Shown here: positions 30,582 to 38,960 of the stretch, in pieces
How the letters are laid out: each line of letters begins with the position of its first letter
Numbering within the stretch: position 1 is the first letter of the stretch
DNA from: an uncultured Schlesneria sp.
GTDB lineage: Bacteria > Planctomycetota > Planctomycetia > Planctomycetales > Planctomycetaceae
Length of the DNA stretch: 48,546 nucleotides
Assembly (NCBI GenBank): GCA_903840265.1
Contig: CAIMFH010000056.1
Span: 1-48,546, forward strand
Direction: 5' to 3'
Made by a program: the position numbers and the translations under genes
Notes under the pieces: model-generated
Told to the model about the DNA's origin: nothing
Databases searched by the model: none
Seen by the model: the letters and a program-made list of their open reading frames with translations, nothing else

Positions 30582-31028
30582 ATGATTCGGTTCCGACACA
30601 CTGATGGGGCTCCCATCGGAAACTTGGCGCGCACACTCCTGTTAGCGTGGGCGATGTTTCTGATCAGCGGATTTGCTTTGGCCTGGTCCCTAAAACCAGA
30701 CCCGCGCGGATTCGGGACGCATCAGCAAATCGGGTTGCCCGAATGTTCGATTCGATTGCTATTTTCGCGACCGTGTCCCGGTTGCGGAATGACGACTAGT
30801 TTTTCGCATTTCGTTCGCGGAGAGTTTGTTGAAGCGGGCCAGACCAACATCGCTGGTCTGCTGCTGGCAACGCTGTGCGTCTTGATGATCCCCTGGAGTC
30901 TGTACAGTGCCATCCGTGGCACGACGTGGTTAGTCGAAGAACCGATGATGCTCTTGACCGTGTTGATCGTGGTCATTGGCAGCATCGCGCTTGTTTCATG
31001 GCTGTTGGCTATTTGGCGCAACGCTTAG
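30582..31028 (+). CDS. DUF2752 membrane protein
   Basis: A 148-residue protein with three hydrophobic segments (about 15-36, 92-110, 122-144). The short cysteine block CPGCGMTTSFSHFVRGE (65-81) followed by a helix is diagnostic of DUF2752 (PF10825), of unknown function. Two cysteines in CPGC could form a disulfide or bind metal, but this is not shown. No Shine-Dalgarno precedes the ATG at 30582, so the start is provisional. It is followed after 67 bp by the first of two paralogous lipoproteins on the same strand. Confidence 0.8.
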   Translation: MIRFRHTDGAPIGNLARTLLLAWAMFLISGFALAWSLKPDPRGFGTHQQIGLPECSIRLLFSRPCPGCGMTTSFSHFVRGEFVEAGQTNIAGLLLATLCVLMIPWSLYSAIRGTTWLVEEPMMLLTVLIVVIGSIALVSWLLAIWRNA

Positions 31029-31054
31029 TTGAGTTGTTGCCTGGTTGAGTTCGG

Positions 31055-31093
31055 CGTCGCCAAGGATGGCGATGTATCCGGCGAAGGATCGCC
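31055..31093 (+). promoter_or_regulatory. Two tandem AGGA-tetraloop hairpins before the lipoprotein gene (candidate CsrA operator)
   Basis: Hairpin 1 (31055-31074) has stem CGTCGCCA/TGGCGATG (one G-U pair) around an AGGA tetraloop; its core CAAGGATG fits the CsrA binding consensus (CARGGAUG). Hairpin 2 (31080-31093) has stem GGCGA/TCGCC around another AGGA tetraloop, which is also the Shine-Dalgarno seven bases before the ATG at 31096. The two GGA triplets are 22 nt apart, within the distance one CsrA dimer can bridge. Binding would block initiation. Confidence 0.5.
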
Positions 31094-31095
31094 CT

Positions 31096-31791
31096 ATGTC
31101 CAAAGAAACATCTCCGTCGCTTGTTTCCCGCCGCCTGGTCATCAAGGCTGTCGGTATCGGGCTCTGTACAGCCGTCGCCTCGTCACTACCCGGCTGTTCG
31201 CTGGGTGTGATGTTTGGAAAGATGGTGATGGGTGAACCGCTCACCCCCGCCGACTTCAAAATTATGACAAAGGAAGATCTCACCAAGGGCAAATACACCG
31301 TCCTGGTCGTTTGCTCGGCCCCCGAGTCTATCGACTCAGAGCATTCGACATTGGCCTACGATGTCATTGATGGTGTGACCCGGCGAATGAAATTGCATGG
31401 GGTCAAAGTGGTCAATCCAGACCTGGTCGCCAGTTGGATCGATGATCATGGCGGGGTGGGCAGTGATCCTCAGGAACTGGCGAACGAATTCGAGCCGGAC
31501 TACATCGCTTTCATCGAAGTCCAATCGTTCAGTTATCGAGAACCAAACAGCCCCAAATTGATGCGCGGCCAGGCGTCCGGCTATGTCCGTGCGTTCTCTG
31601 TCAGCGAAATCAACGGGCATAAAAAAGTGACCAACGTGTTTATTTCGGAGTTCAAGTCGACCTACCCGAAGCACACTCCGGTTTCGGAGCAAGGTAAGTC
31701 GTCGATGATATTCCAGAAGGAATACATGGATCGCTTCTGCGACATGCTGGGCGAGAAATTCTACGACCATCGGCCCGGATCGGACATTTAA
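31096..31791 (+). CDS. Lipoprotein of unknown function, first of a tandem pair
   Basis: A 231-residue protein starting at the ATG at 31096. Its N-terminus has a possible twin-arginine (SRRLVIKAVG) and a lipobox SSLPGC with the acylated Cys34, so it is an envelope lipoprotein. The mature part has no family I recognise. Motifs shared with the next gene are a beta strand VLVVCSAPES, a block VKVVNPDLVASWIDD, an acidic hydrophobic strand YIAFIEVQSFSY, MRGQASGYVRAFS and a C-terminal STYPKHTPVSE. The gene probably arose by tandem duplication with its neighbour 53 bp downstream. A resemblance to small outer-membrane lipoprotein activators is only structural guesswork. Its start is buried in the AGGA-hairpin leader. 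Confidence 0.75.
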   Translation: MSKETSPSLVSRRLVIKAVGIGLCTAVASSLPGCSLGVMFGKMVMGEPLTPADFKIMTKEDLTKGKYTVLVVCSAPESIDSEHSTLAYDVIDGVTRRMKLHGVKVVNPDLVASWIDDHGGVGSDPQELANEFEPDYIAFIEVQSFSYREPNSPKLMRGQASGYVRAFSVSEINGHKKVTNVFISEFKSTYPKHTPVSEQGKSSMIFQKEYMDRFCDMLGEKFYDHRPGSDI

Positions 31792-31844: not shown

Positions 31845-32528
31845 ATGTCCAAGAGTTCCGCAAATCGCCTGGTCCAGAGCAAGTGGGTCTTGATCTTTGG
31901 CGGCCTGACCTGGTGCATCCTATTCAGCGGATGCCGCGTTGGCCTGCTGCTGGGTCTCCTCATCGCGGGTCCACCGACTGTTGAACCAGAATTCGACAGG
32001 CAGACCAAAGAATCAATGACGGACAAGGATGTCACCGTCGCCGTAGTCTGTTTCGCGCCAACGGAAGTGCGATACAGTTTCGACAACATCGATCACGAAC
32101 TCGCCAAATACGTCGCGTTTCGTCTCGCAGAGCACAAGATTTCGATCGTTCCGCCAGACCATATTCACGCCTGGCTGGAAGAGAACAAAGATTGGGATAA
32201 ACCTGAGGAAATCGGAGCCGCCTTCAAGTCGACCTACGTGATCTATGTCGATCTCAATGAATTCTCATTGTTTGAAGAGGGAAGCACATCACTGTACCGC
32301 GGTCGCTCCGAAGCGGTCGTCAGCGCCTGGAAGATGGACGACGATGGAACTGCCGAGAAGATCTTCAGTATGGAAAAGATCTCGAAGTTCCCGCAGCAGC
32401 AGCCAGTGAGCGCTGCTGAGGACACCTATCCAAACTTCAAGGGCCGCTATCTGTCGCGACTTAGCAACGAAATCGGTCGGTTCTTCTACGAGTACTATCT
32501 GTCCGACGAAATCGGAGCCGGGAACTGA
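31845..32528 (+). CDS. Lipoprotein of unknown function, paralogue of the preceding gene
   Basis: A 227-residue protein with lipobox LFSGC (Cys30) after one hydrophobic signal segment. It aligns with the preceding protein over almost its whole mature length: VAVVCFAPTEV against VLVVCSAPES, ISIVPPDHIHAWLEE against VKVVNPDLVASWIDD, YVIYVDLNEFSLFE against YIAFIEVQSFSY, and YRGRSEAVVSAWK against MRGQASGYVRAFS. Unlike its partner it lacks the twin-arginine and is more acidic. AGGAAAG lies five bases before the ATG at 31845. Function is unknown; the two are presumably co-transcribed with the DUF2752 gene. Confidence 0.75.
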   Translation: MSKSSANRLVQSKWVLIFGGLTWCILFSGCRVGLLLGLLIAGPPTVEPEFDRQTKESMTDKDVTVAVVCFAPTEVRYSFDNIDHELAKYVAFRLAEHKISIVPPDHIHAWLEENKDWDKPEEIGAAFKSTYVIYVDLNEFSLFEEGSTSLYRGRSEAVVSAWKMDDDGTAEKIFSMEKISKFPQQQPVSAAEDTYPNFKGRYLSRLSNEIGRFFYEYYLSDEIGAGN

Positions 32529-38756: not shown

Positions 38757-38960
38757 ATGCTGGTACTTTCTCGGAAACCTGGTGAGAAGATTCTGATTGG
38801 CGAGGATGTCACGGTCACGATCGTTCGCATTGGGCCAAACACCGTACGCATCGGTATCGAAGCTCCTCGCACGATGAATATCGTTCGCGAAGAGTTATGC
38901 GAACCTGCGGGACACTGTGAACGAGTCATTGAAGTCCATACGGACGAAGAACTGGCATAA
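38757..38960 (+). CDS. csrA: Carbon storage regulator CsrA (translational regulator)
   Basis: A 67-residue RNA-binding dimer that blocks or stabilises mRNAs at GGA motifs. The family start MLVLSRKPGEKILIGEDV and IVRIGPNTVRIGIEAPRTMNIVREEL are unmistakable, including the conserved Arg44 region (IVREEL) needed for RNA binding. The tail (EPAGHCERVIEVHTDEELA) is acidic. AAAGGGG is seven bases before the ATG. It stands alone; no fliW or flagellar gene is adjacent in the window. A rho-independent terminator follows. Confidence 0.97.
   Translation: MLVLSRKPGEKILIGEDVTVTIVRIGPNTVRIGIEAPRTMNIVREELCEPAGHCERVIEVHTDEELA

Follow-up and report, generated by a model that had tools for sequence, protein, structure and literature searches.

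What do two small RNA hairpins do directly in front of a lipoprotein gene in Schlesneria, a budding bacterium of the Planctomycetota? The window analysed here, the whole stretch of 48,546 nucleotides of contig CAIMFH010000056.1, carries them between the first two genes of a cluster in the order DUF2752, lipoprotein 1, lipoprotein 2 (Table 1). CsrA, a global regulator, belongs to a family of gene-silencing proteins, and the initial annotation had proposed that the hairpins place the lipoprotein pair under its control. Examining the leader, its homologues and the csrA genes, we conclude that the two hairpins are probably a CsrA/RsmA-type translational control site at which a CsrA paralogue represses, which suggests that the lipoprotein 1 gene may be switched on and off post-transcriptionally.

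Table 1. Coordinates of the leader hairpins and of the genes discussed (positions in the window)
Feature	Position	Strand	Description
Hairpin 1	31054..31075	+	9-bp stem (two G.U), loop AGGA; ANGGAN hexamer AAGGAU at 31062-31067
Hairpin 2	31080..31093	+	GGCG-AAGGAU-CGCC; Shine-Dalgarno AAGGA (31084-31088) in loop
Lipoprotein 1 (putatively regulated gene)	31096..31791	+	231 aa; lipobox PGC; twin-arginine pair invariant in 11 aligned rows
Lipoprotein 2, paralogue of lipoprotein 1	31845..32528	+	No ANGGAN hairpin in own leader here
DUF2752 gene (PF10825), upstream in cluster	30582..31028	+	
csrA	38757..38960	+	PF02599, E 3.4e-23; L4, R6 and R44 present; one of 12

A published CsrA/RsmE site consists of an ANGGAN loop on a short stem at an initiation site (PMC7652899, PMC4894983), and on high-affinity targets RsmE contacts a hairpin with an ANGGAN hexaloop (PMC7652899). 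The centroid fold of 31040-31110 yields the tandem AGGA hairpins that had been annotated, pairing 31054-31062 with 31067-31075 in hairpin 1 and 31080-31084 with 31089-31093 in hairpin 2, a 5-bp stem whose loop presents the Shine-Dalgarno of the downstream gene. When the closing A-U pair of each is open, both loops become the hexamer AAGGAU (31062-31067 and 31084-31089), with GGA unpaired in each; the initial annotation had noted a match to the CsrA consensus for the first loop core. Hairpin 2 overlaps the Shine-Dalgarno and initiation region, the ATG at 31096 lying 7 nt past AGGA. The GGA triplets, at 31064 and 31086, are 22 nt apart as first reported, within the 10-63 nt that a single dimer is able to bridge (PMC7652899).

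Folding energy has little power to discriminate here. The 71-nt piece 31040-31110 is ordinary by this measure (z -0.89; 41/200 shuffles equally good), and the value for 31056-31095, a piece chosen to fit, is moderately low (z -2.3; 4/200 shuffles). The ordinary value for the longer piece would suit hairpins that arose by chance around a Shine-Dalgarno, as would the frequency of 5-bp GGA-loop hairpins between -120 and +30 of source-genome gene starts (85/561, 15%). What goes beyond chance is the anatomy of the hairpins and their conservation, not the folding energy. The sole Rfam match in the window is a tRNA. The leader (31041-31110) holds two GGA only, AGAGA-type secondary sites being uncounted, and was therefore not assigned to the multi-site CSRA_TARGET class, which in the available text of its description needs at least three sites (PMC4066749). 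An in-frame start at 31072, with loop 1 as its Shine-Dalgarno, was picked by the start caller yet is not conserved, and we rejected it; the equivalent start in genome G012, which has one extra base, reads ATG-TAA.

In 13 of the 15 Schlesneria genomes, the exact 14-mer of hairpin 2, GGCGAAGGATCGCC, precedes the lipoprotein 1 gene, standing 2-5 nt ahead of its ATG. It occurs once per genome save for an additional copy in G011, which is not at the lipoprotein 1 gene and was left out of the counts. Across 12 genomes (omitting G012, a near copy of the source genome G000), ungapped identity averages 30% over the 40 nt upstream and is 100% over the 14-mer block. In G003 the 14-mer differs at its last base and a 4-bp stem is retained; in G010, the smallest genome, two pairs are mismatched and the hairpin is lost. 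Species differ in the reading frame that runs through the 14-mer, which rules out coding constraint on it. The hairpin 2 stem shows no variation inside the genus, so that no compensatory change is seen there and the genus is uninformative on pairing. In Schlesneria the letters of hairpin 2 seem to be constrained beyond pairing, and the invariant stem leaves room for a second reader of the sequence. Such invariance, in excess of what structure alone would need, fits a base-pairing partner or a sequence-reading protein, that is, a small RNA with an anti-Shine-Dalgarno loop or an RNA-binding protein other than CsrA. Against this, 12 of the 13 genomes having the 14-mer contain no second perfect copy or complement of it, and therefore a fully complementary RNA from elsewhere is excluded in these 12, with short seeds remaining.

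For hairpin 1, an exact match exists in the near-identical G012 alone; the upstream hairpins of other species, where there are any, are different. In five further Schlesneria genomes the upstream GGA hairpin stands on a stem of unrelated sequence, examples being CAGACT-GGA-AGTCTG (G011), GCCGTCA-AGGAT-TGACGGC (G007) and CGAGT-CGGAG-ACTCG (G009); the upstream loops of G003, G009 and G011 contain GGA but are not ANGGAN hexaloops. With G012 dropped as a near copy and the mutually similar G001, G002, G005 and G006 kept in the counts, upstream GGA hairpins (stem of at least 6 bp, within 80 nt) were found in 6 of 14 leaders, compared with a mean of 0.32 in dinucleotide shuffles (0/1000). GGA ranks first among the 64 loop triplets, the next triplet reaching 3 of the 14 leaders; the eight leaders lacking such a hairpin of 6 bp include those of the four similar genomes. 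The GGA idea arose by eye on Schlesneria leaders, so this upstream test is not independent, and the tests on 18 leaders, 80 genomes, hexaloops in 41 genera, shuffled flanks and control genes came after it. By rule, a second upstream GGA hairpin is present in 7 of 15 Schlesneria genomes (G000 and G012 included), one of them 70 nt away, as well as in 7 genomes of four other genera, and the rest have none.

Among 18 homologous leaders from outside the genus, 8 have a GGA hairpin with a stem of at least 6 bp, versus 0.95 in shuffles (0/300). Two of the 18 leaders, L098 and L102, come from genomes that also stand, as G061 and G102, in a set of 80 further genomes. In that set, between -120 and +30, GGA came first of 64 triplets with 5-bp stems (26/80) and second to TTC with 6-bp stems (11 vs 15). 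This broad window is less convincing than the start region. Between -45 and +25 of the homologue, ANGGAN hexaloops with stems of 4 bp or more are present in 14 of 41 genera outside Schlesneria (28 of 96 genomes), and the next best of the 64 cores reaches 3 of 41 genera. The 80 genomes, fetched after the hypothesis was formed, alone give 22/80 genomes and 10/29 genera. The start hairpin is absent in the other 27 of the 41 genera, and 12 class-level homologues outside the family, viewed without statistics, offered no clear counterpart of it. At source-genome gene starts the same hairpin is found in 9 of 561, and with 5-bp stems the comparison is 9/41 genera vs 1/561. The score was 0/41 genera at five coding positions of the lipoprotein 1 gene, 0 or 1 of 41 at four upstream positions, and 0/27 for each of two neighbouring control genes, a hydrolase and an oxidoreductase. 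These control genes were scored from -45 to +20, a limit at which the homologues likewise give 14/41 outside the genus, and start codons were set by the same Shine-Dalgarno-favouring rule for homologues and controls.

Pairing was then assessed blind to the stem. Of the 75 ANGGAN near the start outside the genus, 40% are flanked by a stem of 4 bp or more; the corresponding figures are 0.9% for the remaining hexamers of those leaders and 4.1% for 220 ANGGAN at control gene starts. When right flanks were shuffled 2000 times among 64 distinct instances, paired sites averaged 2.1 and never exceeded 8, against 26 in the real leaders, and therefore the stems change while pairing and loop stay, as expected if pairing rather than letters is conserved. 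The start hairpin is thus under selection as an RNA hairpin. Homologous leaders do keep stems and GGA loops, the check proposed with the initial annotation (13/15 in the genus, 6/14 upstream, 14/41 genera, controls 0/27). Chance origin is refuted by the conservation of the 14-mer together with the flank shuffle and the control genes, and it also runs against the upstream count, the number of genera and the empty coding positions, leaving it a negligible probability. Because stems vary freely in other genera with ANGGAN kept, recognition of the loop plus the hairpin is indicated, and we consider it unlikely that another RNA-binding protein or a small RNA binds these hairpins instead of CsrA.

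The place of the loop relative to the start signals differs between genera. In six of them it precedes the AUG and mostly covers the Shine-Dalgarno, as in UGCC-AAGGAU-GGCA (g56) and GGUG-AAGGAC-CACC (g5), and in nine, going by predicted start codons, the loop begins with the AUG itself, examples being GGCG-AUGGAU-CGCC and CGUC-AUGGAU-GACG; g65 falls in both groups. This bears on whether the hairpin could be a cis-acting Shine-Dalgarno device, such as a standby site, a thermosensor or mRNA protection, that works with no trans factor. The Shine-Dalgarno in the loop and the moderate stability of hairpin 2 (-7.3 kcal/mol) would suit such a device, but the nine genera with AUG rather than Shine-Dalgarno in the loop nevertheless keep ANGGAN, a standby or accessibility device would need no A and GGA at fixed places, and upstream GGA hairpins without a start signal recur too; we regard it as quite improbable. 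Even less probable is a DNA operator, the palindrome GGCGA-N4-TCGCC bound by a transcription factor. Its arms do not vary among 13 of the 15 Schlesneria genomes, but the centre there is always AAGGAT, the arms at this place are unrelated in other genera, and the position tracks the start codon within the genus (1-5 nt), as a translational signal would. In the two g5 sister genomes L174 (G095) and L171 (G120), an upstream hairpin GGCGAGC-..-GCTCGC is common to both, and the loop GGA of G120 is CGA in G095, a natural loop mutant.

The source genome has 12 csrA genes, and L4, R6 and R44 are present in all eight of the 12 paralogues that were read. Two of these residues, L4 and R44, are critical in RsmE (PMC7652899), and CsrA proteins having both are therefore encoded in the genome. 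All 150 genomes of the family have csrA, in 3-17 copies each; because of this, the hairpin cannot be correlated with presence or absence of csrA, nor can the 27 of 41 genera without it be linked to csrA loss. The csrA gene that had been pointed out 7.7 kb from the lipoprotein 1 start is real, but its linkage is weak evidence because it is one of 12 and csrA lies that close in just 4 of 15 Schlesneria genomes, several of whose assemblies have short contigs; we dropped it as an argument. No FliW was found in the source genome by a search whose controls were positive in B. subtilis and T. maritima. A scan of 837 kb (~11%) of this genome revealed no CsrB-like sponge, sought as a 250-nt stretch with at least four ANGGAN hairpins.

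The same scan returned 94 ANGGAN hairpins whose stems have 4 bp or more, and three tandem pairs 14-63 nt apart, the window's pair among them. Of the other two pairs, one lies 63 nt before a called gene (L092, reverse strand, 18728) and one near no called gene. A single hairpin, ATCG-AAGGAT-TGAT, sits at a gene start at L055:11164, and GCGCA-ATGGAT-TGCGC precedes another lipoprotein-like protein (L084, reverse strand, 6701). The gene starts at L092, L055 and L084 are candidates for the same regulon.

Returning to CsrA-type control, we infer CsrA as the binder, repression as its effect and one of the paralogues as the acting protein. The two unpaired AAGGAU hexaloops would serve as the two contact points of one CsrA dimer. 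A paralogue on loop 2 would cover the Shine-Dalgarno, so that the 30S ribosome could not start on the lipoprotein gene, and loop 1, 22 nt upstream, would raise affinity by bridging. Once CsrA is titrated or scarce, hairpin 2 would offer the Shine-Dalgarno in its loop and the gene could be translated. A broader picture, possible but rather doubtful, is that CsrA control of the lipoprotein cluster is ancient in Planctomycetaceae and continually rebuilt: stems would turn over, ANGGAN would move between Shine-Dalgarno and start codon, AUGGAY would be a merged start and repression signal in nine genera, and the paralogues would share out the sites with neither FliW nor a classical sponge RNA involved.

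For the pair of lipoprotein genes, the proposed Csr control is supported for the leader of the first gene, as judged from sequence comparison, and not for the second within Schlesneria, where none of 14 lipoprotein 2 leaders contains an ANGGAN hairpin of 4 bp or more. Elsewhere, an ANGGAN hairpin is present in the lipoprotein 2 leader of 15 of 80 genomes and 5 of 29 genera, including UGUG-AAGGAU-CACA before the AUG in 10 of 10 genomes of g56; at 5 bp, GGA does not lead in these leaders (1/29 genera; AAA 2). In G009 (L013), a long near-perfect inverted repeat resembling a mobile or REP-type palindrome lies between both lipoprotein genes. Lipoprotein 1 matched no Pfam family at E 1 and no solved relative by sequence (best E 0.12). 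Its structural model, of low confidence (mean pLDDT 60.7), resembles PelC, GNA1162 and FlgT (TM to query 0.33-0.43) and also LptE, and the likeness to the first three may serve as a lead only. The invariant RR ahead of its lipobox, seen in 11 aligned rows, is as in Tat signal peptides. Of 111 loci, 75 have a frame with a C-x-x-C-G-x-T motif upstream of lipoprotein 1.

In the available text of PMC4894983, the CsrA regulon outside Gammaproteobacteria is called unclear. csrA is enriched in the sigma-54 regulon of Planctomycetia, and the available text of that report gives no target (PMC12316311). Our literature search found no paper describing a Csr target in planctomycetes, in line with the initial annotation, which knew of none. 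Elements of this kind are already known. What did not appear in the search, and is new to us, is the phylum, the target and a loop that has shifted repeatedly between the start codon and the Shine-Dalgarno. The locus is thus a named, deeply conserved candidate CsrA target, with natural mutants at hand in G010 and in G095 (loop GGA to CGA), in a family whose 3-17 csrA copies per genome allow division of labour among paralogues to be tested.

Among known systems, the Bacillus subtilis hag leader has CsrA sites, one of them over the Shine-Dalgarno, and in this it is like the Schlesneria leader; it differs in belonging to another phylum, to a flagellin gene and to a partner switch with FliW. The CsrA-repressed flaA leader of Campylobacter jejuni resembles the window in having two adjacent ANGGA stem-loops, the second over the ribosome-binding site, with the GGA 21 nt apart there and 22 nt apart here (PMC4894983). 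Its stems show compensatory changes and, as far as the available text describes, it is protected at the two GGA only (PMC4894983). Unlike the window, with its lipoprotein gene in a genome where no FliW was found, flaA is a flagellin gene with FliW as antagonist (PMC4894983). A further comparison is with RsmZ stem-loop 2 and the NMR ligands of RsmE. RsmZ differs in being a sponge RNA, whereas the Schlesneria site is in an mRNA leader (PMC4066749, PMC7652899). The core of RsmZ stem-loop 2, CCCCGAAGGAUCGGGG, a positive control for RsmA binding, is identical to window positions 31082-31091, CGAAGGATCG (PMC4066749), and the ten letters CGAAGGAUCG, a hexaloop AAGGAU closed by G-C, are common to hairpin 2 and to RsmZ-2 (PMC4066749, PMC7652899).
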